Below, one piece after another: positions 731 to 14,789 of a stretch of DNA of 34,716 nucleotides; within the stretch, counting starts at the first letter, position 1, and each line of letters begins with the position of its first letter. Under the pieces are notes generated by a model. The model made no database searches, had not been told where the DNA came from, and saw only the letters and a list, made by a program, of their open reading frames with translations. Location: NCBI GenBank assembly GCA_029547025.1, contig JAKPQA010000204.1, positions 1 through 34,716 of the forward strand. Reading direction: 5' to 3'. Made by a program: the position numbers and the translations under genes. This DNA comes from Armatimonadota bacterium (GTDB taxonomy: Bacteria > Armatimonadota > Zipacnadia > UBA1398 > JAKPQA01).

Positions 731-1576
731 TCAGTAGTCCGTCGGCAACTGCTTGAGCTGTGCCAGCGAGAACACCGGGCCGTCCACGCACACGAACTTG
801 CCCGCCACGTTGCATCGCCCGCACTTGCCGATGCCGCACTTCATCCGATTCTCCAGATTCGTGAAGATCTGCTCGTCGGCGAACCCGAGCTTGCTCAGCC
901 CCTGCAACACGAACTTGATCATGATCGGCGGCCCGACGGTCAGTGCCACCGCGTTGTCTGGCGACGGCGCGACCTCATCCAGAAGCTGGGGCACGAACCC
1001 CTCTCGCCCCGTCCAGCTCTCATCGCCCTTGTCGACGGTCAGGTGCAGCACCGTGCGCTCCGCTTGCCGATACTGCTCAAACTCGCGAGTGTAGACCAGG
1101 TCTTGCGGCGACCGCGCGCCGTAGATGATGGTCACCGCGCCGAACCGGGCCCGGTTCTCGGGCGCCAGGACCTCGTTGAAGCACGTGCGCAACGGCGGGA
1201 GCCCCACGCCCCCGCCCACGAACACCAGGTCCTTGCCCTCCCACGATGCCAGCGGCCAGCCATGACCATAGGGGCCGCGAATGCCCACCTGCGAGCCGGG
1301 GCCCAGTTCGTGCAACGCCGTGGTCACCTTGCCTACCTTCTTGATGGTAAACTCAATAAAACCCCTCTGGCTGGGCGATGACGAGATGTCGAACGTCGCC
1401 TCGCCGTGCCCGAACACCGACACCTCGGCGAACTGGCCTGACTCGTAGGTGAAACCCTCGCGCAGAGCCTCGTCCTCAAAGACCATGCGGAAAGTCTTGA
1501 TGTCATAGGTCTCGTCGAACACCTGGTCGATCCGCGCCAAGGCGGGCAAATACGGATTGCGGGCGGGCTCGGTCAC
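731..1576 (-). CDS. flxA: FlxA-like FAD/NAD(P)-binding subunit with 2Fe-2S cluster
   Basis: Predicted 281-residue ferredoxin-NADP reductase-type flavoprotein, the NADH-oxidising subunit of a FlxABCD-HdrABC complex. It resembles anaerobic sulfite reductase subunit B and PyrK-type electron transfer proteins. An FAD-binding beta-barrel carries the DISSSPS motif (residues 63-69). The nucleotide-binding loop GGGVGLPPLR is at 121-130. A C-terminal C-x4-C-x2-C-x7-C motif (Cys 247, 252, 255, 263) should hold a 2Fe-2S cluster. I chose the GTG start at 1576 because it overlaps the flxB stop as GTGA; upstream in-frame codons lie inside flxB and give a low-complexity Arg/Gly-rich tail. It is the last gene of the seven-gene operon. 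Family function is established for Desulfovibrio; activity here is inferred. Confidence 0.88.
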   Translation of the reverse strand: MTEPARNPYLPALARIDQVFDETYDIKTFRMVFEDEALREGFTYESGQFAEVSVFGHGEATFDISSSPSQRGFIEFTIKKVGKVTTALHELGPGSQVGIRGPYGHGWPLASWEGKDLVFVGGGVGLPPLRTCFNEVLAPENRARFGAVTIIYGARSPQDLVYTREFEQYRQAERTVLHLTVDKGDESWTGREGFVPQLLDEVAPSPDNAVALTVGPPIMIKFVLQGLSKLGFADEQIFTNLENRMKCGIGKCGRCNVAGKFVCVDGPVFSLAQLKQLPTDY

Positions 1577-2631
1577 GCCACGGTCACCCCTTGCTCCTGT
1601 GCCATGGCGGCCCGGACATCGGCCACCACCTGGCGGATCGAGATCCCCACCGGGCAGAGCTCGGCGCACCGCCCGCAACCCGTGCAGCCGGTCACCCCGA
1701 ACTCCTGGGGCATGTAGAGGAACTTGTGCAGGACGCGCTGGCGCAGTCGCGCCGCCTGGTCGTGTCTCGGGTTGTGCCGCGACGCGTGCAGCGTGAAATG
1801 GTCAAACTGACACGAATCCCAACACCGATAGCGCGCGCCGCCCGTGCCCTGCCTCTCGTCCAGGATGTCGAAACAGTGGCAGGCAGGACAGAGGAACGTG
1901 CACACCCCACAGCCGATGCAACGCGCGCCCTGGTCCGCGAACACCTCGCTCGCCCAGACCTCGAGCGCCGTCGCCTCGAGAGCCCCGATGGCCCCATCCG
2001 CCGGCACGGCCGTGATGAGCCCCGCATGCACGGCCCCGGCCGCCGAAACCTGGTCGGATGTGGCCTGGGCCGCACCCGAAACGCCCGCCAATGACCCGCC
2101 GCGGTCGGTCATCACGTGCAGCACATGGCCGCCCGATATGGGCGTCATCAACACATCACAAGCCTCTTCGGCCATGTCGACAGGCGACCCCACCTGGGCA
2201 CAAAAGCACGTCCGCCGCGGCGAGGCGCAATAGAGACCAACGATGGCCATGCCCTCGGCCTCGAGCCCCAGCGGGTCGGGATGCTTGCCCTGGCGGAACA
2301 CGTGCGTCACGCGACGGATCGCCGCGGCCTCACAAGGCCGAATGCCGAAGGCGACCCGTGAGCCTTCCGGCCTCGGAACCGCCTCGAGCGTCGCGCCCTG
2401 GCTGTCCAGCCGATAGCGGAACAGGATCTCCGTCTGCGGCATCCAGAGCTCGCGAATGGACGCGCGCCGCGCATCCAGTGACAGGTCTACGGCCGACGGA
2501 TCACGCACCAGGGCGAACTCGGGCCTCCCCGAGGAACCGACCTGCGGGCCGAACACCGTCGATGAACCCGCCAGCGCACCGACCCAGCTCCCGACGCGGT
2601 CGCCCGGCAGGAACAGAGGCGTGCCCTTCAC
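1573..2631 (-). CDS. flxB: FlxB-like 4Fe-4S dicluster electron-transfer subunit
   Basis: 352-residue iron-sulfur protein of the AsrA/hydrogenase-beta-subunit type, expected to relay electrons between FlxA and the rest of the Flx-Hdr complex. Two classical 4Fe-4S motifs are visible: CIGCGVCTFLCP (Cys 238, 241, 244, 248) and CTGCGRCAELCP (Cys 316, 319, 322, 326). Extra cysteines lie between and before them (RPCEAAAIRR, YCASPRRTCFC, CHCFD, RCWDSC), as is usual in this family. The GTG start at 2631 overlaps the flxC stop by four bases (GTGA) and has a GGAGGTG Shine-Dalgarno eight or so bases upstream, so translation is probably coupled. Its own stop overlaps the flxA start. The precise symbol rests on operon context as much as on sequence. 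Confidence 0.85.
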   Translation of the reverse strand: MKGTPLFLPGDRVGSWVGALAGSSTVFGPQVGSSGRPEFALVRDPSAVDLSLDARRASIRELWMPQTEILFRYRLDSQGATLEAVPRPEGSRVAFGIRPCEAAAIRRVTHVFRQGKHPDPLGLEAEGMAIVGLYCASPRRTCFCAQVGSPVDMAEEACDVLMTPISGGHVLHVMTDRGGSLAGVSGAAQATSDQVSAAGAVHAGLITAVPADGAIGALEATALEVWASEVFADQGARCIGCGVCTFLCPACHCFDILDERQGTGGARYRCWDSCQFDHFTLHASRHNPRHDQAARLRQRVLHKFLYMPQEFGVTGCTGCGRCAELCPVGISIRQVVADVRAAMAQEQGVTVA

Positions 2632-3614
2632 GACTTCCCACCTCCGTGCCCCGGCAGATCCGGGTCCGCATCGCGGTAAACGGCGAAAGGCGGCGTGTCA
2701 TCCATGCGCACACCGGCCACGTGGCCGAACATGCCGTCAACCACCTGGGCCATCTTGGTATTGACCGCCATCAGAGGGAGGCCCACTGGGCACGCGCGCT
2801 CACACGCACCGCAGCCAATGCACCGGCCGGCAAGATGCATGGCCCGGACCATGTGGTACAGCTCATTGCCGCCCCCAAGTGTCGAACGAGGCACCCACTG
2901 GGGGCGCGTCTCATCGGCGAAGCACTTCTCGCAAAAGCACAACGGGCACACGTTACGGCATGCATAGCAGCGGATGCAGCGGTTGTAGGTCTCCGAGAAG
3001 AACCGGCGACGCTCGTCCCGACCCATGGCCTCAATCTCCGCCACCTGAGCCGCCAGGGGATCGGGGCGACCAGGGGGCGCCTCCGGGAAGTCGCCCAGTC
3101 GCACATCATCGATCACGGGCTGCGGAACGGGGCAGGCCACGCATCGGGGCAGCAGGTCCTCCGTCAGGCTCAGCCGAGCCACACCCGCATCAGTCTCGAC
3201 CGCCACGGCATCGCCGTCGGTGCGGATGGCCTCGATCCGGCGCCACGGCGCCCGGGCCCTCTCGTCGATGCGCGCCGCATCGACGATGCCCGTGCACCCC
3301 ATGGCAATCACGAACACGTCCTCGCGCCGGATGTGGCTCTCCTGCATCATCACCACCAGGGCCCGGGTATCACAGGCCTTGGCGACCACGGCCACGGGCT
3401 TCTCCGCCCCGCCCTGGACGTACCGCGACAGGTTGTGGGCACAAAGCGGGTTGAACACCAGCGCTTCCGCCTGGTCCGGGCGGGTGATCACCGCGGGAAC
3501 CGGCAGTCCGCTCTCGGCATGGGACTGGTACCCCACGACCGCACGAACCGTCCCTTGCTCCAACAACTCCCGCGCCTTGGCCCGGAGGGTGGGGACCGGG
3601 TCCGGATCAGACAT
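2628..3614 (-). CDS. flxC: FlxC-like 4Fe-4S dicluster subunit
   Basis: 328-residue soluble iron-sulfur protein. The N-terminal half resembles coenzyme F420 hydrogenase/dehydrogenase beta-subunit-like proteins (VAKACDTRALVVMMQE near residue 78, AMGCTG near 104). A middle cysteine pair CVACP is at 158-162. Two C-terminal ferredoxin motifs follow: CIRCYACRNVCP (Cys 213, 216, 219, 223), continued by LCFCEKC, and CIGCGACERACP (Cys 265, 268, 271, 275). The ATG at 3614 overlaps the end of flxD by eight bases. Together with flxA, flxB and flxD it forms the NADH-oxidising Flx module. The order of FlxB and FlxC relative to characterised homologues should be confirmed by alignment; the assignment as an Flx iron-sulfur subunit is firm. 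Confidence 0.84.
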   Translation of the reverse strand: MSDPDPVPTLRAKARELLEQGTVRAVVGYQSHAESGLPVPAVITRPDQAEALVFNPLCAHNLSRYVQGGAEKPVAVVAKACDTRALVVMMQESHIRREDVFVIAMGCTGIVDAARIDERARAPWRRIEAIRTDGDAVAVETDAGVARLSLTEDLLPRCVACPVPQPVIDDVRLGDFPEAPPGRPDPLAAQVAEIEAMGRDERRRFFSETYNRCIRCYACRNVCPLCFCEKCFADETRPQWVPRSTLGGGNELYHMVRAMHLAGRCIGCGACERACPVGLPLMAVNTKMAQVVDGMFGHVAGVRMDDTPPFAVYRDADPDLPGHGGGKS

Positions 3615-4050
3615 GCGCCATCGCCGCCTTCTGCTCGGCCGCGTTCAGGGCCTCAACCATCTCACGGATGACCTGCGCGAACTCCTTGCCCTCAGAGGCC
3701 GAGACCCACTCGAAGCGGTACTTGTGCGGGGGTACGCCGGTGAACTCAAGCAGCTCGAGCAGCGCCGTCAGCCGCCGGCGGGCGTAGTAGTTGCCCTTGG
3801 CATAGTGGCAGTCCCCCGGGTGACAACCGGAGACCAATACCGCATCGGCCCCCTGCTCGAGCGCCTTGAGCACGAACAGAGGATCCACGCGGCCCGAGCA
3901 CGGCACCCGGATCACCCGCAGGTTCGCCGGGTAGTCCATCCGCCCCGAGCCGGCCAGGTCAGCCCCCGCGTAGCTGCACCAGTTGCACAAAAAGGCCACG
4001 ATCTTCGGTCGCTTGTCCTCGTGCTGAGCCTGAACCGCTTCCACCGTCAT
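3607..4050 (-). CDS. flxD: FlxD / MvhD-like delta subunit (2Fe-2S)
   Basis: 147-residue MvhD-family protein that links an electron-donating module to HdrA. Conserved cysteines lie in LCNWCSYAGADLAG (Cys 22, 25), VPCSGRVDP (Cys 51) and SGCHPGDCHY (Cys 76, 81), the standard MvhD/FlxD pattern for a 2Fe-2S cluster. The ATG at 4050 is eight bases after the hdrA stop. A longer in-frame extension to 4203 lies inside hdrA and is Arg/Gly-rich, so it is rejected. In methanogens MvhD passes electrons from the hydrogenase MvhAG to HdrA. Here no hydrogenase genes are adjacent and the partner is FlxABC, which suggests NADH as the donor. Confidence 0.92.
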   Translation of the reverse strand: MTVEAVQAQHEDKRPKIVAFLCNWCSYAGADLAGSGRMDYPANLRVIRVPCSGRVDPLFVLKALEQGADAVLVSGCHPGDCHYAKGNYYARRRLTALLELLEFTGVPPHKYRFEWVSASEGKEFAQVIREMVEALNAAEQKAAMAHV

Positions 4051-4058
4051 GTGCCTCG

Positions 4059-6077
4059 CTATTCCGACTCGCCGGCGAGAGCCGCCGCGGCATCCACGAA
4101 CACGGCCGTGGCGATCTCGTCGAAGACCTGCTCGTCGCGGAACCCCGCCAGCTGGGCGGCGCCCGAGAAGCACGCCGCGGCGCACGTCCCACAACCCATG
4201 CACACATTGGCGTTGACCTGGGCCACGCGCTTCTCGATACGCTCAATCGGGTCTTTCCAGGTCGTCTCCTCGATGGCGCTGAAGGGGCAAATCCGCACAC
4301 ACTGGAGACAGCCACGGCACGCCACCGGGTCCACCGAGGCCACCTGGGCCTCCGACAGCAGGTGGTCCTTGGCCAACAGGCCGGCCACCTTGGCCGCCGC
4401 GGCGCTCGCCGAAGCCACCGCATCGGGGATGTCCTTGATGAACTGGCAGGCGCCGGCGATGAATATGCCGGCCGTCAGGTTCTCCACCGGACGCAGCTTC
4501 GGATGCGCCTCAGAGAAGAAGCCGTCCTTGTCCTGGCCAATCCCCAGCATCTGGGCCACCTCGCGCGCCCCCGCGCGTGGCTCCGCGGCCGCGGCGAGCA
4601 CCACCAGGTCAGCCGCCACCTCGATCTGCTCGCCCGCCAACGAGTCCGCTCCGCGAACGATGAGCCGGTCACCTTCGGGATAGATGCGGGACACCCGCCC
4701 GCGCAGATATCGCACGCCGTAGTCGCGCTGGGCACGCAGGATGAACTCCTCGTAGTTCTTCCCCGTGGCCCGGATGTCGATGTAGAACACATAAGCCTCG
4801 GCGTCCGGCATCTTGTCCTTCAGCAGGGTGGCGTGCTTCGCCGTATACATGCAGCACACCCGCGAGCAGTACTCGTGGCCCTTGTCCTGGTCCCGCGAGC
4901 CCACGCACTGGACGAACACCACCGTCTTGGGCTCCTTGTGATCCGACGGCCGAACCAGGTGGCCCCCGGTCGGGCCCGAAGCGTTCATCAGCCGCTCGAA
5001 CTCGAGCCCCGTGATGACGTTCGCATACTGCCCTCCCCCATACTCGCCGTAGACCCGCGGATCCATCACATCGAACCCGGTGGCGACCACCACGGCCCCA
5101 AACCGCTCCGTGAGGATCTCGTCCTGCATCTCAAAGTCGATACAACCCACGGGGCAGCGCTTGGCGCACACGCCGCACTTGCCCGTCTGGAAGTAGAGGC
5201 AGTGCTCGCGGTCGATGACCGGCACGTTCGGCACGGCCTGAGGGAACGGCGTGTAGATGGCGGCCCGGGTGCTGAGCCCCGCGTCGAACTCGCTCGGGAT
5301 GTTCTGACGCTTGGCCGGGCAACGCTCCCAGCACTCGCCGCAGCCCTTGCACTCCTCCAGACGCACCGACCGCGCCTTGAGGCGAATCTTCGCCTCGAAG
5401 TTGCCGACGAAACCGTTGAGCTCCTCGACCTCGGCATACGTGCGCAGCGTGATGTTGGGGTGTGCCGCCACATCCACCATCTTGGGCGTCAGGATGCACG
5501 CCGAGCAGTCGAGGGTGGGGAAGGTCTTGTCGAACTGCGCCATGCGCCCGCCGATGGACGGTGACCGCTCCACGAGCACCACCGGGTGACCCGCGTCAGC
5601 GATGTCGAGCGCGGCCTGGATCCCCGCGATGCCGCCACCAATGACCAGTGCGCGTCGCTCCACCGGCAAGCGGTTCTGCGTGAGCGGCTGGTCATAGTAG
5701 GCCTTGGCCACCGTCATGGCGATCTGCTCGTAGGCCCTCTGCGTCGCCCTCTCGGGATCCTTGTGGCACCACGAACACTGCTCACGGATGTTGCACATCT
5801 CGACCAGATACGGATTCAGTCCCGCCTGGGACGCACAGGCCCGGAAAGTCCGCTCGTGCAGGTGCGGCGAGCAGGCCGCCACCACCACGCGATCCAGCTT
5901 GTGCTCCTCCATGGCCTGGCGAATCATCTGCTGGCCAGGCTCCGAGCACATGTACTTGTACTCCGTGGCGTGGACCACGTTCGGCAACCGCCCGACGGCG
6001 GCCACCACGCGGGATACATCCACGTTCTTGGCGATATTGGTCCCACAGTGGCACACGAACACGCCGATGCGCGCCAC
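4059..6077 (-). CDS. hdrA: Heterodisulfide reductase subunit A (flavin-bifurcating)
   Basis: 672-residue iron-sulfur flavoprotein, the site of electron bifurcation in Hdr complexes. The N-terminal domain has VFVCHCGTNI and further cysteines to residue 104. A Rossmann FAD site VIGGGIAGIQAA follows at about 145-156, then DCSACILTPKM (Cys 191, 194). Four ferredoxin-type motifs are visible: CKGCGECWERCP (243-254), CGVCAKRCP, CRGCLQCVRICP and CMGCGTCAAAC. FFSEAHPKLRPVEN is also characteristic of HdrA. The GTG start at 6077 shares one base with the hdrB stop (TAGTG) and directly precedes ARIGVFVCHC; upstream in-frame sequence lies in hdrB. Length is normal. No in-frame TGA suggesting selenocysteine was seen. 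Confidence 0.95.
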   Translation of the reverse strand: MARIGVFVCHCGTNIAKNVDVSRVVAAVGRLPNVVHATEYKYMCSEPGQQMIRQAMEEHKLDRVVVAACSPHLHERTFRACASQAGLNPYLVEMCNIREQCSWCHKDPERATQRAYEQIAMTVAKAYYDQPLTQNRLPVERRALVIGGGIAGIQAALDIADAGHPVVLVERSPSIGGRMAQFDKTFPTLDCSACILTPKMVDVAAHPNITLRTYAEVEELNGFVGNFEAKIRLKARSVRLEECKGCGECWERCPAKRQNIPSEFDAGLSTRAAIYTPFPQAVPNVPVIDREHCLYFQTGKCGVCAKRCPVGCIDFEMQDEILTERFGAVVVATGFDVMDPRVYGEYGGGQYANVITGLEFERLMNASGPTGGHLVRPSDHKEPKTVVFVQCVGSRDQDKGHEYCSRVCCMYTAKHATLLKDKMPDAEAYVFYIDIRATGKNYEEFILRAQRDYGVRYLRGRVSRIYPEGDRLIVRGADSLAGEQIEVAADLVVLAAAAEPRAGAREVAQMLGIGQDKDGFFSEAHPKLRPVENLTAGIFIAGACQFIKDIPDAVASASAAAAKVAGLLAKDHLLSEAQVASVDPVACRGCLQCVRICPFSAIEETTWKDPIERIEKRVAQVNANVCMGCGTCAAACFSGAAQLAGFRDEQVFDEIATAVFVDAAAALAGESE

Positions 6078-6943
6078 TACCGGCCACCTCCTGCCGCCCC
6101 GGCCGGGACGCGGGGGATCATCAACTGCTCGGGAACACCCAAAGACTTCGGCGACAGGCCCAGGGCCAGACCAAGCACCTGGGTGATGTACAGCACCGGC
6201 AGCGGCTCCTCGCCCAGGGCGACCTGCTGCCGCGTATCGAGGTTCACCTGACACAGTGGGCAGGCCGTAACGATCCACTCCGCGCCCGCGGCGCGGGCAT
6301 TCCGTATGATCCGATCGACCAGCGTCAGGACCACCGAGCTCTGGGGGATCGAATGGCTGGCCCCGCAGCACTCGTTCTTGAAATACCAGTCGCAGGTCTC
6401 GAGGCCACACAGCCGAAGCAGACGGTCCATGGTCTGTGGATTCTCCGGATCATCGAACCCGGTCTCCTTGGGCGGACGCACGAGAAGGCACCCGTAGTAC
6501 GCCGCGACCTTCGAAACCGGCAACGGCTGCATGGCACGCCCTCCGAGCCGCTCGGCCACCTCCTCGTGCGAGAACACCTCCAGCAGATGCAGCACTCGCA
6601 CGGGCTCGCGCACGGGCCGGCCGAGCAGCTCCGCGATCCGTTGCTTCCGGGCCGCATCGCCTTCGGCCAGCACGTTGGCCGCCCGCTTCGTGCGGTTGTA
6701 GCACGCGGCACACGGCGCCACGAGATCGAGGCCCATGTCCGTCGCCAGAAGGACATTCCGGGCCCCCAGCGCGTCCGCCACCTCCCGGCTCGCGCTGTGG
6801 CCCGATGTGGCCCCGCAGCAGTTCCAGTCCTCGAGCTCGGTCAGCTCGATGCCCAGGGCACGGCACACCTCGACCGTCGAAGCACCATATTCCTTCGAGG
6901 TGCCGCTCAGCGAGCACCCGGGGAAGTACGAGTAGGCAGGCAT
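6077..6943 (-). CDS. hdrB: Heterodisulfide reductase subunit B (two CCG domains)
   Basis: 288-residue catalytic subunit with two CCG domains, which in homologues bind the noncubane 4Fe-4S clusters that cleave a disulfide substrate. The first domain shows WNCCGATSGHS (Cys 42-43) and APCAACYN (Cys 78, 81). The second shows NECCGASHSI (Cys 192-193) and TACPLCQVNLD (Cys 228, 231). The substrate here is unknown: methanogens use CoM-S-S-CoB, and DsrC has been proposed in sulfate reducers; no dsrC is visible in this window. I chose the ATG at 6943 because GAGGT lies just upstream. An in-frame ATG at 6976, seven bases from the hdrC stop, is an alternative adding eleven residues. Confidence 0.94.
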   Translation of the reverse strand: MPAYSYFPGCSLSGTSKEYGASTVEVCRALGIELTELEDWNCCGATSGHSASREVADALGARNVLLATDMGLDLVAPCAACYNRTKRAANVLAEGDAARKQRIAELLGRPVREPVRVLHLLEVFSHEEVAERLGGRAMQPLPVSKVAAYYGCLLVRPPKETGFDDPENPQTMDRLLRLCGLETCDWYFKNECCGASHSIPQSSVVLTLVDRIIRNARAAGAEWIVTACPLCQVNLDTRQQVALGEEPLPVLYITQVLGLALGLSPKSLGVPEQLMIPRVPAGAAGGGR

Positions 6944-6983
6944 CGCAGGGACCTCACTTCTCTGGTGCGTGGACATGCGGGCC

Positions 6984-7532
6984 TCAGGTCTTGCTCGATC
7001 CCGAGGACTGCCGGATGATCCGGCGGATCACATCGCGATCCTGGATCCGATGTGGGAGCAACGACAGCTTGCCCTGCCGGAACATGCGGATGCCCAGGCC
7101 GATGTCATCGAAGAAACGGCGCGTCTTCGCCTTGTACACGCCAATGGCCTCAAGTTCATGGGCGCGCCCATGTCGAGCCACCGAATCCAGGAATGCCTGG
7201 TGGAACTGCGGCGCACCCGTAGACCGGTCGGCCATTCCCCGTTCCCTCGAGAGCTGGCGCAGCGCATCGACCACCTCTGCCACGCTCACGCTCATCGGGC
7301 ACCGGGCCGCGCAAGTCTCGCACGACGAGCACAGCCAGATGGCCTTCGAGCGAAGCAGGCGATCCGCTTGTCCGAGCTGCACTAGGCGGATCATCTGGTT
7401 CGGCTGAATGTCCATGGCGAAACTCATCGGGCACCCGGCCGTGCACTTGGCGCACTGGTTGCAGTCGAAAACGCGCTGACCGGACAGCGCCTCGATCTCG
7501 CCGGGCAGAGAGGAACCGCGAAGTCTGATCAT
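6984..7532 (-). CDS. hdrC: Heterodisulfide reductase subunit C (4Fe-4S relay)
   Basis: 182-residue iron-sulfur protein that carries electrons from HdrA to HdrB. Two 4Fe-4S motifs are visible: CNQCAKCTAGCP (Cys 24, 27, 30, 34) and CSSCETCAARCP (Cys 68, 71, 74, 78). The remainder is helical, as in the family. It is the first gene of the operon. The ATG at 7532 is preceded by AAAAGG about seven bases upstream; a longer in-frame extension to 7613 has no family match and is rejected. The gap to hdrB is 40 bases. The 278 bases upstream, up to the next gene, should hold the operon promoter. Confidence 0.93.
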   Translation of the reverse strand: MIRLRGSSLPGEIEALSGQRVFDCNQCAKCTAGCPMSFAMDIQPNQMIRLVQLGQADRLLRSKAIWLCSSCETCAARCPMSVSVAEVVDALRQLSRERGMADRSTGAPQFHQAFLDSVARHGRAHELEAIGVYKAKTRRFFDDIGLGIRMFRQGKLSLLPHRIQDRDVIRRIIRQSSGSSKT

Positions 7533-7669
7533 ATGCGACCTTTTCCCACTGAGCTGGCAACCTCGACCAGGAATAGCCCTGGTGGATGTTCCGAGCCATC
7601 GTGTTCGCGGCACAACTGGGGGATTCCTTGACCAGCGGAGCCGCCCCGCCAGGGCAGCTCCATACCTCT

Positions 7670-7763: not shown

Positions 7764-7792
7764 CGGGGGCGGCACGCGTGCCACCGCCCCCG
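7764..7792 (-). terminator. GC hairpin after CxxC-repeat protein 1
   Basis: A perfect 9-base inverted repeat, CGGGGGCGG (7764-7772) and CCGCCCCCG (7784-7792), flanks an 11-base loop that is itself partly palindromic. It starts 18 bases past the stop of the gene ending at 7811. No T-tract follows on the minus strand, so it is not a canonical intrinsic terminator. The identical stem lies after the paralogous gene at 9111-9140, which suggests a conserved 3'-end element. Confidence 0.55.
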
Positions 7793-7810: not shown

Positions 7811-8878
7811 CTACCGACGGCCGCCTCGCGAGCCCTGAGCACTGCCGGGCTCGCGACGCTCCGTGTCTCGGGTCGAAGGTTCACGCCGCTCCCCGTCAGG
7901 AGCCTGTGGCGGGCGCCGTTCGCCGTCTCGAGCCGTCGGCTGACGGCGGTCACCATCCCGAGGAGCCGCTTCGCGCCGCTCCCCGTCACGCGCTTGTGGA
8001 GGGCGCCGCTCACTGCCCCGGTCGTCCGGGCGCCTTCGGTCGTCATCGCGCGCCACCGGTGGGCGACGGTCGTCTCCCCGGCCAGGAGCCGGGGGCTGAA
8101 CCCGCGGCCGAGCCGGGGCCGGCGGGGCCCAGTCGCGGCGGTCCTGCTCATGACGCCAGTCCGGCCGGCCGACGTATGGCGAGTGATGGCTACCCGGTGG
8201 GTCGATGCCGTAGCCGGGTCGGCGCGGCTGGGGCACCGGACGCACGGGGCTATAGGGGTACCGGTCGCCGTAGAACCCGTACGGCCCTCGGTACACGCCC
8301 AGCGGCAGCCTCAGGTAGCCCCAGTACCGGTCGTGGCGATCCAGGCCATACCGATCACGGCAACGGTCACACCAGTCATCCCGGTCACGGTCGCGACAGC
8401 GAGGGCATAGGTCGGTGTAGAAGCGGTTCTCGTAGCGGTGACGGCAGCGGTCACACCAATCATTCGGGTCCCGGTAGCGGCACCGGTCGCACAGAAAGCT
8501 GTAGCCGTAGTACCCGTAGTCGTACCGGTCCCGGCAGCGGTCGCACCAGTCACGCCGGTCCCGATCCCGGCAGCGATCGCACAAGTCCGGATAGGCGCGG
8601 TTGTTGTAGCGGTTGCGGCACCAGTCGCACCAGTCACGCATGTCGCGATGGATGCACCGATCGCAGGGATCAAACCCGCGCCAGTAGAGGCGGTGGTCGG
8701 GGTGCCGATCGCGATCGGCATCGTACCAGCCGATCTGAAGCCCGAAGAGCCCGTCATCGTGCCGATCCCCGGCCATGATCGAGAGGCCGAAGCCGTCCGC
8801 GCGAGCCGGCGCAGAGGTGGCCAACACCCCCACAGCCATTCCTGCCACCATCAGAAGCCCCAGTGCCCTCTCAGTCAT
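7811..8878 (-). CDS. Secreted Arg/Asp-rich protein with four Cys4 repeats
   Basis: 355 residues; family not recognised. Residues 1-27 form a signal peptide ending in PARA|DG. A head segment (28-53, including GDRHDDGLFG and IGWYD) precedes four repeats, each C-x2-C-x8-C-x2-C with Trp before the third Cys: cysteines 72/75/84/87, 100/103/112/115, 130/133/142/145 and 158/161/170/173. Repeat period is 28 residues (one spacing is 30). All 16 cysteines of the protein are in the repeats. A Tyr/Pro/Gly-rich region follows, shared with the paralogue up to WAPPAP (250-255), then six 10-residue units of the type RDGERRPPQA (287-346). Spacing suggests a Cys4 metal site per repeat, an inference. There is no CxxCH, so it is not a c-type cytochrome. 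The ATG at 8878 has GGGGGTGG upstream; a GTG at 8887 is too close to that site. Confidence 0.8.
   Translation of the reverse strand: MTERALGLLMVAGMAVGVLATSAPARADGFGLSIMAGDRHDDGLFGLQIGWYDADRDRHPDHRLYWRGFDPCDRCIHRDMRDWCDWCRNRYNNRAYPDLCDRCRDRDRRDWCDRCRDRYDYGYYGYSFLCDRCRYRDPNDWCDRCRHRYENRFYTDLCPRCRDRDRDDWCDRCRDRYGLDRHDRYWGYLRLPLGVYRGPYGFYGDRYPYSPVRPVPQPRRPGYGIDPPGSHHSPYVGRPDWRHEQDRRDWAPPAPARPRVQPPAPGRGDDRRPPVARDDDRRRPDDRGSERRPPQARDGERREAAPRDGDRRQPTARDGERRPPQAPDGERREPSTRDTERREPGSAQGSRGGRR
7841..8020 (-). repeat. Six 30-bp units encoding a 10-residue repeat
   Basis: Within the C-terminal tail of the gene at 7811-8878, six consecutive 10-residue units occupy residues 287-346: RGSERRPPQA, RDGERREAAP, RDGDRRQPTA, RDGERRPPQA, PDGERREPST and RDTERREPGS. 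This gives an exact 30-base period without indels. The paralogue at 9155-9841 lacks the tail, so it arose or was lost after duplication. The segment is strongly charged and Pro-rich and probably disordered. Confidence 0.8.
8360..8665 (-). repeat. Four tandem Cys4 repeats (84-bp period)
   Basis: The four C-x2-C-x8-C-x2-C units in the gene at 7811-8878 are encoded here from Cys 72 to Cys 173. Units are 16 residues from first to last Cys, separated by 12, 14 and 12 residues of the type R-x-R-Y-x-N-R-x-Y. The DNA shows recurring blocks such as CGGTCGCACCAGTC on the plus strand. This is a coding repeat, not a CRISPR array: repeats are degenerate and there are no unrelated spacers. Confidence 0.85.
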
Positions 8879-8975
8879 CCCAGCCACCCCCTTCTCTGCC
8901 AGCCCGGCTCGTTACCCTCAGGCTGTGCACCACACCCCTCTGACGCGGTCAGCGCGGGGCGGGTTCCGTGTGGGC
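8879..8975 (-). promoter_or_regulatory. Conserved leader upstream of CxxC-repeat protein 1
   Basis: About 97 bases directly upstream of the ATG at 8878 align with the region upstream of the paralogue (9842-9940). Shared blocks include GGGCTGGCAGAGAAGGGGGTGG next to the start and CGTCAGAGGGGTGTG further upstream (minus strand). The first block contains the ribosome binding site. Similarity extends past what translation needs, so the block probably also carries promoter or leader elements. I cannot place -35/-10 boxes with confidence. Confidence 0.6.
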
Positions 8976-9110
8976 GCGCCGATCGCCGCGGCTCGCGAAC
9001 GCCCGCTAGCGGGCCAGGAAGCCCGCATCAGTCTGCCCCCGGCCGGGGTCGCGGCACCCAGCCATGCGACGGTAGGCAGGCGCGCCGGACGCCCCACCCC
9101 GTACGCACAA
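8976..9110. other. Spacer between the two paralogous units
   Basis: 135 bases with no gene. Two perfect GC palindromes are present, GCCCGCTAGCGGGC at 9001-9014 and CCCCGGCCGGGG at 9037-9048. Neither is repeated elsewhere in the window that I can see, and in such GC-rich DNA they may be chance. Confidence 0.4.
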
Positions 9111-9140
9111 CGGGGGCGGCACCAAGTGGCGCCGCCCCCG
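9111..9140 (-). terminator. GC hairpin after CxxC-repeat protein 2
   Basis: CGGGGGCGGC (9111-9120) pairs perfectly with GCCGCCCCCG (9131-9140) around a 10-base loop, 14 bases past the stop at 9155. The nine outer bases are identical to the stem at 7764-7792 after the paralogue while the loops differ, which points to selection on the stem or recent duplication. Only a short TTG follows on the minus strand, so termination by this hairpin alone is uncertain. Confidence 0.58.
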
Positions 9141-9154
9141 AGTCGCGTCAGGAG

Positions 9155-9841
9155 CTAGGGCCGGCGGACGTCCCGCCGTCGGCCGCCGTCGAGTGCGTCA
9201 CTGGGAAGCACGATAGTCGTCCGCGGGGCCGGCGGTGCCCAGTCGTTGGTCCGCCATTGCTCATCGCGCCAGTTGGGCCGCCCGACAAAGGGGGAGCGGC
9301 GATCGCCGAAGATCGTGGTCGTGTAGCCTCGCCGATCCGGTGCCGGAACGACTCGGAGTGCCTCGTAGGGGTACGGCTCCGCGTAGAGGCCATGCGGCCC
9401 GCCGTAGACACCCGGCGGAAAGCTGACTCGTCCGCCGTCGTATCGATCCCGGTAGCGGTCGCGGTCCCAGTCATCGCGATCGCGGAGGTCATACCTGTGC
9501 CGGCACTTGTCGCACCAGTGGTCGCGATCCCGATCGCGGCACCGGTCGCACAGGTCATCGTAGAAGCGATTGTTGTAGCGATTGCGGCACTTGTCGCACC
9601 AGTCGCGCATGTCGCGATCGCGGCAGCGCTTGCAGGGCTCGAAGTCACCCCAGTAGCGATGGTGGGGATCGTCGCGGTCGTCGTCGTACCATCCGATGTG
9701 GAGCCCAAAGAACTCGTCGTCGTGCCGGTCGCCCGCCGTGATCGAGAACTCAAACCCGTCGGCTCGGGCCGGTGTCGAGGTGGCCCACACCCCCACAGCC
9801 ATCCCTGCAACAAGCAGAAGCCTCATTGCCTTCACAGTCAT
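9155..9841 (-). CDS. Secreted Arg/Asp-rich protein with two Cys4 repeats
   Basis: 228-residue paralogue of the protein at 7811-8878; family not recognised. Signal peptide 1-27 ends in PARA|DG. Over residues 11-53 it matches the paralogue at 35 of 43 positions. Two repeats are intact: cysteines 70/73/82/85 and 98/101/110/113, again C-x2-C-x8-C-x2-C with Trp before the third Cys. A third unit (about 117-135, DLRDRDDWDRDRYRDRYD) has lost its cysteines. The shared tail (FPPGVYGGPHGLY, then SPFVGRP and WAPPAP) follows; the 10-residue repeat tail of the paralogue is absent. The ATG at 9841 has AAGGGGGTGG upstream. Between the paralogues most differences in matched codons 25-53 fall on third bases of this frame, so this strand is the coding one. 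Cys4 metal binding outside the cytoplasm is my inference. Confidence 0.8.
   Translation of the reverse strand: MTVKAMRLLLVAGMAVGVWATSTPARADGFEFSITAGDRHDDEFFGLHIGWYDDDRDDPHHRYWGDFEPCKRCRDRDMRDWCDKCRNRYNNRFYDDLCDRCRDRDRDHWCDKCRHRYDLRDRDDWDRDRYRDRYDGGRVSFPPGVYGGPHGLYAEPYPYEALRVVPAPDRRGYTTTIFGDRRSPFVGRPNWRDEQWRTNDWAPPAPRTTIVLPSDALDGGRRRDVRRP
9503..9634 (-). repeat. Two tandem Cys4 repeats (84-bp period)
   Basis: These bases encode Cys 70 to Cys 113 of the gene at 9155-9841, two C-x2-C-x8-C-x2-C units with a 28-residue period. A cysteine-free remnant of a third unit follows at about 9437-9493. The paralogue has four intact units, so copy number differs between the two genes. Confidence 0.8.
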
Positions 9842-9940
9842 TCTCGCCACCCCCTTCTCTGCCAGCCCTTCCCGCTGCCTTCGGGCTGTTCAACACACCC
9901 CTCTGACGTGGGCCGCCCAGCAGGGGTTCCATGGCAGGTG
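9842..9940 (-). promoter_or_regulatory. Conserved leader upstream of CxxC-repeat protein 2
   Basis: Aligns with 8879-8975 upstream of the paralogue, with only small differences over about 95 bases. It includes the ribosome binding site region AGAAGGGGGTGG and the distal block CGTCAGAGGGGTGTG (minus strand). Shared regulation of the two genes is the natural inference. The remaining 30 bases to the next gene stop at 9971 are not conserved. Confidence 0.6.
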
Positions 9941-9970
9941 GGAGTGCTCCCCAACCCACGGCACGGGTAC

Positions 9971-10468
9971 CTATCCCATGAACTTGAGGTCGCCGTAGAG
10001 ACGCTGGAGGTAGGCCACCTGACCCGTGTGGTACGACCAGTGGGAGGCCGCGAGCCCCACCAAACCCGCACGGGTATCGGTCATGAACGGCAATGAAACC
10101 GTGTCGTTCCACGCCGAGTCGGGCACGTCCCTCACCGCCTGGTCGGTCTCGGCTCCTGCCTCCCGGATCATCCGGACCAAATCGGCCTTGTCGCTCACCT
10201 CCGCCGCCGGCCCGGCGCCCGCGAAGCTCGACGAGGCCGCCCAGTTCGGGTCCATGGGCGTGTCCTCAGGCCACTTCCCATCGACCACCATGCTGCGCAT
10301 GGGATGCTCGTTCGCGATCAGGTGCCGGGTGATCTCGAGGATGCTCGTGGCGTCCCCCTGCGCAGCCACAGGCTTCCAGTCCAACCGGTCATCAGGCGTG
10401 GCCTGGATCATCTGGATGTAGAACTCGCGACTGGCCGCGAGCCACTTCAGGGTCGTCTCGATGCCCAT
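9971..10468 (-). CDS. DinB-family protein
   Basis: 165-residue DinB/YfiT-like four-helix protein. Candidate metal ligands are His 49 (ITRHLIANEH), His 143 and His 147 (SHWSYHTGQVAYL), the usual three-histidine arrangement. The C-terminal HTGQVAYLQRLYGD is typical for the superfamily. Members are metal-dependent thiol transferases or hydrolases, some damage-inducible; the substrate cannot be told from sequence. The ATG at 10468 has AGGGAGGGG about six bases upstream. It is co-directional with the CxxC-repeat gene downstream but separated by the latter's conserved leader, so a shared transcript is uncertain. Confidence 0.8.
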   Translation of the reverse strand: MGIETTLKWLAASREFYIQMIQATPDDRLDWKPVAAQGDATSILEITRHLIANEHPMRSMVVDGKWPEDTPMDPNWAASSSFAGAGPAAEVSDKADLVRMIREAGAETDQAVRDVPDSAWNDTVSLPFMTDTRAGLVGLAASHWSYHTGQVAYLQRLYGDLKFMG

Positions 10469-12273: not shown

Positions 12274-14616
12274 CTACTGCCGCCACAGCTTGGCCGCGCA
12301 GTCCGTCTCCAGGGCGTCCACACTGAGCCAGAGCGAGCCACCATCACAGGTCACTCGATCCTCGCCGATGGGCTTCCCGGCATAGGTGTCCCACCATTCG
12401 ATCCGGTAGGCACCCTCCGGCAGGCCCCTCAGCTCGATCTCGCTCGGGGCAACCGTCCCCCATGGGCGCTGGCGGAACTTCTGGTACCACGTGTGGAGCC
12501 GGTTGCGAATCCAGATCAGCGCCCGCTGACCGTTGTGCAGGCCCACGGCCTGTAGACGCGGTGTGGTGGGCACCATGTAGTCGGTGAACTCATACTCGGC
12601 ATAGAACCAGTCGCGCCCCGTGTTGTCGACCACGATCTCGTGCTCACCAGCCGACACCTCGATCGCGTAGGGGCCATTGTGGTCATCGACCGTGCCAAAT
12701 CGCTCGGGGTCGCCCCGATCGGGCAGCTCCTTGGCCAAAGCCTCGACACCGTCGAGGCGAACCACCAGCCGCGCCCCACCATAGCCCGATGTGCCCCGGA
12801 CGTGAACGATGAACCGCCCATCGCGCGGATAGTCGACCCGGAAGGTAACCGGGTTGTGAAGATCCGGGTGGTTGACCGTGCCGTGGATGATCCCGGGAAC
12901 CGTCTCGGCGTCGGTCACGGTGCCGTCGCGGCCCACCGCGTGCGTGCGGGGCTCGTTGGCAGGGCCCGGTCCCCAACTGGGTGAGGCCCCGGTCAGCGTC
13001 AGGTTGGTGGGCTCTTCAGCCGGAGCACCGGCCTGGTAGCGCATCGCTCCGAACTCCACGGGCACCAGCCGCTCGTTGGCGAAGTCCACGTCGGCCAGGA
13101 AGCGGCTCAGCGCCGCATAGTGGTAGTACAGATCCCGTGGTTCGACGTAGTTGTCCCACCACCAGAGCTGGGCGCAGCCGGCCGACTGCGCCAGTGACGT
13201 CGACCAGATGCCGTCATGCAGATGGATCCCGTCAGAGTCGGCCCCATTGCCCTCGGCCATGGCCCCGGTGCCGAACTCGCCCACGATGTGCGGCTTGCCG
13301 AACCGCTCGATCTTCCGCCGCGTGTAGCCGAGCAGACCCTCAGCCGTGTCCAGCGAACCGTAGTTGTGAGTCTGGACATAGTCCATCTCCGGCAGCCCGT
13401 CGATCTCCGGGTCGCCGTTCGAGTTGGCGAAACTCGTGGTGATCAAATGATCATACGGGTCGATGTCCCGAAGATACCGCGCCATCTCCTGGTGCCAGGC
13501 TCTGACCTCTTCAGGGACATACCGCTCGATGATGTCCACTTCGTTCCAGAATTCCCACGAGAGCACATGCGTGCTGTACGCGTACCGCGCGACGAGGTGA
13601 CGGAGCCGCCACCGGAACAACTTGCGGGCTGGATCGCTGACGAAGAACTCCTCGGGTGTCGCGCAGGGACCCCCATTGGCCAGGTTGTATGGACAACTAG
13701 ACCAATATGGGTAAGGGTCACTGGCTCGGAGCGAGTTGAACGAGTCGATGCAGAGCATCAAGTAGATGCCCTTCTCCTCCGCCAGGCTGAGCACATAGTC
13801 CAGAGCCCAGGCGCTGGTCAGGTCGTGCCGGCCGGCCCCGAGAACGCCATCACCCTCCGGAGCTCGTTCGAGAGCGAACAGATCAAACGGACCCAGCCAC
13901 AGCCGAGCGTAGTTGCAGCCGGCCTCGGCCATCCTCGTGAACCACCGGTCGTAGTCGAATGTGCCTCGCGAGCCCGGCCAACAGACGTTCATACCCAGAG
14001 CGAAGTAACCCTTACCGGAGTCAAAGGCGAAGTAGTGCGGATCCCTGGCCCGGCGGACGAAGCCCTCCGAGCCGGACGGGACGCACTCGAACGTCCGCTC
14101 GTCCGACTCCACGGTCCCCGAGCGGTCGCGCACGCGAATCCGGTAGCGGTACGTGCCGGTCTCGGGCGGGCAGAAGCGGATCCGGAACGTGTCCCCCTCG
14201 AGGCGAGAGAGCCGTTCCGTATCACCCTCGAGCCGACGCTCGTAGAGGCGGTGAAGGTAGCCGGGCACGGCCCAGGTGTGCCCGCCGGGACCCGAGAACT
14301 GGGCCGAGACATCGATATCTTCCGGGTCGAATGGGTTATCGTAGGTTGCCGAGAGGTCAAGGATGGCCTCGAGCTTGCCATACCGCGGGACCTCCGTGGG
14401 GGCCGTGACGCCCCGCAACTCGAGGCCCTCGGCCCGAGGCCCCACGACCTTGAGCGGCAGCTGCGGCTCGTTCGGTGCGATCACCAGAGCGCCCAACTCC
14501 TTCGCCGGAACAGTCAGGCCGGGCCGCGCTCCCGCCCCCGAACCGGCAACGAAGGGCAGAGCCAGCGCCAGGGCGGATGCGAGCACGCGCGGCGCGCGGC
14601 GGCGCCAGTTGACCAT
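12274..14616 (-). CDS. Secreted clan GH-A glycoside hydrolase (DUF5060/GH5-like)
   Basis: 780-residue exported enzyme. After a signal peptide (about 1-30) comes an Ig-like DUF5060-type domain (about 70-180, ending ETGTYRYRIRVRDRSG). A TIM barrel follows with NYARLWLGPFD, an acid/base glutamate in SWEFWNEVD (Glu 359) and a nucleophile in HIVGEFGTG (Glu 447), the spacing expected for retaining clan GH-A enzymes. The C-terminal 300 residues look like beta-sandwich carbohydrate-associated domains. The substrate cannot be read from sequence; relatives act on plant or microbial polysaccharides. I chose the ATG at 14616 because GGAGG lies eight bases upstream; a GTG at 14631 overlaps that site. The gene is divergent from the NTF2-like gene at 14790. 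Confidence 0.82.
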   Translation of the reverse strand: MVNWRRRAPRVLASALALALPFVAGSGAGARPGLTVPAKELGALVIAPNEPQLPLKVVGPRAEGLELRGVTAPTEVPRYGKLEAILDLSATYDNPFDPEDIDVSAQFSGPGGHTWAVPGYLHRLYERRLEGDTERLSRLEGDTFRIRFCPPETGTYRYRIRVRDRSGTVESDERTFECVPSGSEGFVRRARDPHYFAFDSGKGYFALGMNVCWPGSRGTFDYDRWFTRMAEAGCNYARLWLGPFDLFALERAPEGDGVLGAGRHDLTSAWALDYVLSLAEEKGIYLMLCIDSFNSLRASDPYPYWSSCPYNLANGGPCATPEEFFVSDPARKLFRWRLRHLVARYAYSTHVLSWEFWNEVDIIERYVPEEVRAWHQEMARYLRDIDPYDHLITTSFANSNGDPEIDGLPEMDYVQTHNYGSLDTAEGLLGYTRRKIERFGKPHIVGEFGTGAMAEGNGADSDGIHLHDGIWSTSLAQSAGCAQLWWWDNYVEPRDLYYHYAALSRFLADVDFANERLVPVEFGAMRYQAGAPAEEPTNLTLTGASPSWGPGPANEPRTHAVGRDGTVTDAETVPGIIHGTVNHPDLHNPVTFRVDYPRDGRFIVHVRGTSGYGGARLVVRLDGVEALAKELPDRGDPERFGTVDDHNGPYAIEVSAGEHEIVVDNTGRDWFYAEYEFTDYMVPTTPRLQAVGLHNGQRALIWIRNRLHTWYQKFRQRPWGTVAPSEIELRGLPEGAYRIEWWDTYAGKPIGEDRVTCDGGSLWLSVDALETDCAAKLWRQ

Positions 14617-14789
14617 GGGGGTCGCCTCCACTCACGGCCCGGGACCGAGGGCCGTGAGGCGAGGCTTCGGCTCCGCCGAGCGCAAGGCCTGCTGCCCAGC
14701 CCGACCCGGCTGCGGCGCCTCGCCGCGCATCTAGTGAAACTGAAGCGCACGGCGGAGGCACCAGCACGGGGACGGAGAGGGAGTGCACC

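Follow-up and report, generated by a model that had tools for sequence, protein, structure and literature searches.

In rubredoxin, two CxxC pairs able to bind one metal lie about 25-30 residues apart. The CCHC zinc knuckle, a short Cys-rich metal unit that may occur in tandem, has the spacing C-x2-C-x4-H-x4-C, and the RanBP2/NZF-type C4 fingers are compact units with the spacing C-x2-C-x10-C-x2-C and a conserved Trp before the first pair. Among the treble-clef and PHD-type Cys-rich zinc fingers, the first half of the PHD finger (C4HC3, cross-brace) reads C-x2-C-x8-C-D-x-C, with the second CxxC near a helix. A C-x2-C-x8-C-x2-C core followed by Tyr is also found in the disulfide-rich laminin-type EGF domain (PF00053, PF24973), where it forms the C4-C7 segment. 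To our knowledge, export of proteins with repeated Cys4 sites is rare in bacteria.

Here we describe a family of exported Cys4-repeat proteins that is real and has gone unrecognised; it is so far known from a single genome, that of an Armatimonadota bacterium (assembly GCA_029547025.1). Two of its genes, P1 and P2, lie in the window, by which we mean the whole stretch of 34,716 nucleotides that was analysed (contig JAKPQA010000204.1). The repeated unit has the spacing C-x2-C-x8-C-x2-C, with a Trp just before the third Cys. The original prediction had likened it to zinc knuckles or rubredoxin, and by spacing it is neither. All units have 8 residues between the Cys pairs, a loop too short for the rubredoxin fold, and the proteins contain no CPxCG and have no rubredoxin profile or fold match. 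The conserved His ligand of the CCHC knuckle is absent at the required place. RanBP2/NZF-type fingers differ in spacing and in the place of the Trp, are not exported and gave no Pfam match here. The PHD finger was rejected as well: only its first four Cys agree, the profile match to the PHF21A PHD (2puy) was weak and non-significant (E 0.23), and there was no fold match. Moreover, the present units lack the His/Cys second half and the cross-brace spacing, and they form a tandem 28-residue array in an exported protein. Laminin-type EGF was rejected on the grounds that the units have four Cys and not eight, lack its Gly-Tyr turn and score far under the PF00053 and PF24973 cut-offs.

Two tandem genes encode exported proteins

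P1 (7811..8878) and P2 (9155..9841) are tandem neighbours on the minus strand, and the positions originally assigned to them were correct, matching their ATG starts. The best start for each is the fourth codon, an ATG preceded by a GAGAAGGGGG ribosome-binding site, which yields proteins of 355 residues (P1) and 228 residues (P2); use of the GTG codons at 8887 and 9850 would give 358 and 231 residues, respectively. A Sec signal peptide could be read from the sequence of both proteins, at 8798..8878 in P1 (ending in APARA before DGF) and at 9761..9841 in P2 (ending in TPARA before DGF), again on the minus strand. The n-region, the hydrophobic h-region and the AxA site are all present (MTVKAMRLLLVAGMAVGVWATSTPARA followed by DG) and are alike in P1, P2 and a third paralogue, P3, described below; PARADGF is invariant in the alignment of the three. 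With all the features expected of Sec export in place, P1, P2 and P3 are predicted to be Sec-exported proteins.

In both proteins the signal peptide is followed by a head of about 40 residues, tandem Cys4 units (four in P1, two in P2) and a Tyr/Pro tail, as had been proposed; P1 carries a further stretch of about 100 residues in which Arg, Asp and Pro are abundant. Arg and Asp together account for about one third of residues. A 552-residue open frame runs antisense to P1 and P2 (window 8438-10096, plus strand) and is probably spurious, arising from GC-rich repetitive coding DNA.

The four-Cys unit is conserved at the protein level

The units of P1 lie at 8582..8665 (CDRCIHRDMRDWCDWCRNRYNNRAYPDL), 8492..8581 (CDRCRDRDRRDWCDRCRDRYDYGYYGYSFL), 8408..8491 (CDRCRYRDPNDWCDRCRHRYENRFYTDL) and 8324..8407 (CPRCRDRDRDDWCDRCRDRYGLDRHDRY), and those of P2 at 9551..9634 (CKRCRDRDMRDWCDKCRNRYNNRFYDDL) and 9467..9550 (CDRCRDRDRDHWCDKCRHRYDLRDRDDW), all on the minus strand. 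P1 has 16 Cys (75, 78, 87, 90; 103, 106, 115, 118; 133, 136, 145, 148; 161, 164, 173, 176) and P2 has eight (73, 76, 85, 88; 101, 104, 113, 116). As first described, all 24 sit inside units, with none outside, and the Cys spacing with its Trp is exact in 6/6 units. The 28-residue period noted at the same time has one exception, P1 unit 2, with a length of 30 residues.

Shuffling of the P1 repeat region produced two or more motifs in only 11 of 20,000 shuffles, compared to the four observed, and compositional chance is therefore excluded as the origin of the Cys4 pattern. Simple repeats in the DNA were also rejected as its source. Tandem Repeats Finder detected no 84-base period, which indicates that the repeat is maintained at the protein level. 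Across the seven units of the three paralogues, 28/28 Cys and 7/7 Trp are invariant; within the motif, the five Cys/Trp positions are thus 100% identical, and the remaining eleven have an identity of 61%. Synonymous divergence between units is strong (pS 0.3-1.1, mostly >0.5; pN 0.09-0.30). For P1 versus P2, dN is 0.26 and dS 1.33 overall, and in the repeats 0.16 and 1.13. The retention of Cys and Trp, together with low dN relative to high dS, shows that the P1/P2 reading frame is real and constrained, despite the long antisense frames nearby.

The seventh exact unit came to light when the whole genome was searched for the pattern. It belongs to P3 (locus L008 6417-7031 on contig C246, plus strand; 204 residues from the ATG), a protein with one unit and four Cys whose signal peptide, head and tail match those of P1 and P2 and which is 62% identical to P2. 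The genome thus encodes proteins with one, two and four units. No other single observation weighs as much as P3, which shows that a lone four-Cys unit can stand by itself. Its single unit makes one site per unit the simplest reading, and its exactly four Cys show that the unit is self-sufficient, which speaks against obligate links between units. A self-contained, strictly conserved four-Cys unit, as seen here, is one of the two features expected of a Cys4 metal-binding mini-domain, the other being that the four sulfurs converge on one site. Upstream of P3 are a Y1/IS200-like transposase remnant (L008 5959-6276) and a GmrSD-like gene (L008 3845-5677).

Predicted structure and comparison with known families

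AlphaFold was given three sequences only, with no ligand. The two units of P2 were modelled with pLDDT 71-79 and most of the remaining protein with pLDDT <50, the head and tail being disordered in the model. For the four-unit stretch of P1 the mean pLDDT was 75 and the pTM 0.46, the values within the units being mostly 80-89; one of the five models of this stretch had a mean pLDDT of 40. All four P1 units were modelled alike: a CxxC turn is followed by a short helix, and a longer helix then begins with WC-D-x-C. Zinc sites commonly pair a CxxC in the first helical turn with a second CxxC opposite it. The existence of a one-unit paralogue and the predicted fold common to all units make one four-Cys site per unit the reading that we favour. 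The original prediction had proposed one Cys4 metal site per unit, and of this the site itself is supported by these results while the metal is something we infer.

Foldseek found no PDB match for the P1 or P2 model and no BFVD match for the P1 model. In Pfam no score was above cut-off, the best values for P1, P2 and the native P1 repeat stretch being 8.3, 11.1 and 12.8 bits versus 27; the P2 value was obtained with PF24973. There was no acceptable match to the proteins in NCBIfam, PHROGs or PADLOC, no significant match in PDB sequence searches, and nothing in a literature search aimed at such a family. The view that the family is unrecognised was therefore upheld at the level of profile, sequence and fold. 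An artificial two-unit consensus matched the DUF7630 and laminin-EGF models below their cut-offs, and these matches are regarded as resemblance in Cys spacing.

Metal site or disulfide module

Our best explanation is that these are exported Cys4-repeat proteins of a lineage-specific family that bind a metal, probably zinc, and are produced under envelope-stress control; we consider this explanation evenly poised between right and wrong. Counting against the metal is that no metal-binding family matched the proteins by profile or by fold.

Cysteines of exported proteins are often disulfide-bonded, and WCxxC at the start of a helix is also the geometry of thioredoxin-type redox sites. The main rival, which we judge rather unlikely, is that the units are disulfide or thiol-redox modules. 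Their CxxC pairs, notably WCDxC, would form reversible disulfides and serve as a thiol sponge or electron relay, or would provide stabilising cross-links. The export of the protein favours this, as do the modelled position of WCxxC at a helix N-terminus, like that in thioredoxin-fold enzymes, and the spacing followed by Tyr, which recalls the laminin EGF core. However, the laminin-EGF scores are far too low and four of the eight EGF Cys are missing, no thioredoxin-fold match was found, and the genome yielded neither of the oxidases searched for. Specifically, DsbA (PF01323) and VKOR had no match in this genome, which is 96% complete, compared to 8/14 and 3/14 control genomes positive, respectively. 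There is thus no evident pathway for fully oxidising exported thiols, which argues weakly for free thiols or metal sites rather than enzymatic disulfides. It does not prove a reducing envelope, as the search for DsbB and other thioredoxin-like oxidases was not exhaustive and one Thioredoxin_4-like domain is encoded in the genome. The large, unrelated-looking predicted protein with a nucleotidase-like part and this Thioredoxin_4-like domain with CPHC (locus L069, contig C311:38626-39063) is a candidate for the exported thiol chemistry of this organism.

The metal-binding explanation can be put as the following mechanism. Some 28 residues would form a self-contained mini-domain, built from a C-x2-C knuckle, a short loop and then Trp-Cys-Asp-x-Cys opening a helix, and its four Cys would bind a single metal ion, most probably Zn(II). 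The mini-domain would be present in 1, 2 or 4 copies, flanked by the conserved head on one side and the flexible Tyr/Pro/Arg tail on the other. The genes would each form a single-gene cassette with an ECF-type (envelope-stress) promoter, and metal or thiol stress in the envelope would trigger production of the protein. Outside the cytoplasm the protein might act as a soft-metal buffer or as a metal-stiffened surface protein, with a capacity tuned by the number of units. A bolder form of this mechanism, in which an exported, envelope-stress-induced string of metal-binding Cys4 mini-domains would constitute a new fold and would buffer metal outside the cell, with a capacity altered by gain or loss of units, we regard as unlikely.

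If metal is bound, the family would offer a minimal and countable 28-residue module, occurring once, twice and four times in the proteins of a single genome and in the cell envelope of an organism with no detectable DsbA or VKOR. It would then allow a concise test of the way in which free thiols or metal sites withstand export, and would provide a small modular scaffold. Should the units form disulfides instead, the question becomes how the organism makes them.

Apparently separate transcription units

An ECF-sigma-type promoter-like site, GGAACC-N16-CGTCAG, lies upstream of P1 (8940..8967, minus strand) and P2 (9903..9930, minus strand), and in 3/3 paralogues exactly 61 bases separate its end from the ATG. 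The site agrees with the described ECF promoter GGAACC-N16-CGTT (PMC10012870) and with the CGTC -10 element of ECF promoters (PMC3397946). By sequence match, then, a GGAAC -35 element and a CGTC-type -10 element at the N16-17 distance are both present, and P1, P2 and P3 may be under ECF-sigma (envelope-stress) control. The N16 spacers are constant in length and have only 7-8/16 bases in common, while the block from CGTCAG onward has 21-23/25; the upstream conservation is partly due to the common descent of the three paralogues. The genome contains six copies of GGAACC-N15-17-CGTCAG, compared to 2 for the reversed control, and three of the six belong to P1, P2 and P3. Two of the three others were inspected and neither clearly precedes a gene. 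Scans for sigma-70 promoters and T-run terminators around P1 and P2 gave nothing of note.

A GC-rich hairpin is located 3' of the stop codon in 3/3 genes. The hairpin after P2 (9112..9139, minus strand; GGGGGCGGCGCCACTTGGTGCCGCCCCC; -39.9 kcal/mol, z -6.0) is strong, as is that after P3. The hairpin after P1, before the next operon (7765..7791, minus strand; GGGGGCGGTGGCACGCGTGCCGCCCCC; -27.7 kcal/mol, z only -0.8), is not above shuffles. A pattern spanning the P2 and P3 hairpins had no other occurrence in the genome. Given the shared upstream site and the hairpin after the stop, each of the three genes looks like a one-gene cassette.

Downstream of P1 on the same strand is an operon-like run (window 731-7613, minus strand) of HdrC-like, CCG-domain HdrB-like, HdrA-like and FlpD/MvhD-like genes, two genes for 4Fe-4S proteins and one for an FAD/NAD-binding reductase, which together resemble a heterodisulfide-reductase-type electron-transfer cluster. 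On the other side, a DUF5060 and GH5-cellulase-like protein is encoded at window 12274-14631 (minus strand). That the redox operon may lie next to P1 by chance had been anticipated. The one-gene cassettes and the absence of any redox operon from the 10 kb P3 contig indicate that the proximity is probably chance.

The same observations bear on the idea that the metal in the units is redox-active or soft but is not zinc, either Fe in a rubredoxin-like site for electron transfer or Cu(I) in a metallothionein-like one for copper/silver detoxification. Four Cys per site and the Hdr/FlpD/FAD-NAD operon downstream would suit this idea, but the hairpin between the operon and P1, the lack of such a neighbour at P3 and the short loop between the CxxC pairs make it quite improbable. 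It is highly improbable that these are fast-evolving mixed-charge surface or matrix proteins whose Cys only cross-link chains between molecules with no defined site, since the spacing is invariant despite the strong synonymous divergence, the units are all predicted alike and the one-unit paralogue retains exactly four Cys, even though the Arg/Asp content, the disordered head and tail and the orphan distribution would fit.

Distribution

Whether the family is lineage-specific was addressed by searches beyond this genome. No relatives were found in 60 related genomes, among 45 other genomes of the class (in which nearly every candidate was scored) or, at the level of the phylum, in 290 other genomes (where only the best candidates per genome were scored). 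The phylum search queried 291 genomes with a whole-protein profile and a unit profile. About 85,000 species were also scanned twice by pattern, an approach that detects close relatives only, so that distant ones may exist; these scans gave none, and the same was true of plasmids, phages and viral contigs. In every collection searched so far the family thus appears confined to this genome and lineage-specific.

The few matches outside this genome were rejected. Unit-profile matches in phylum genomes span only fragments of 8-21 residues, and a weak match in genome G003 (L015) has no corresponding gene there. The best outside match (E 0.001), in genome G013, resembles the signal peptide and head and was rejected as a family member for having no Cys units. 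This protein (L014 1285-1758, minus strand) has a signal peptide and a head weakly like that of P1 and P2 (GWFDDDDG), and it provides a lead for a possible relative of the head.
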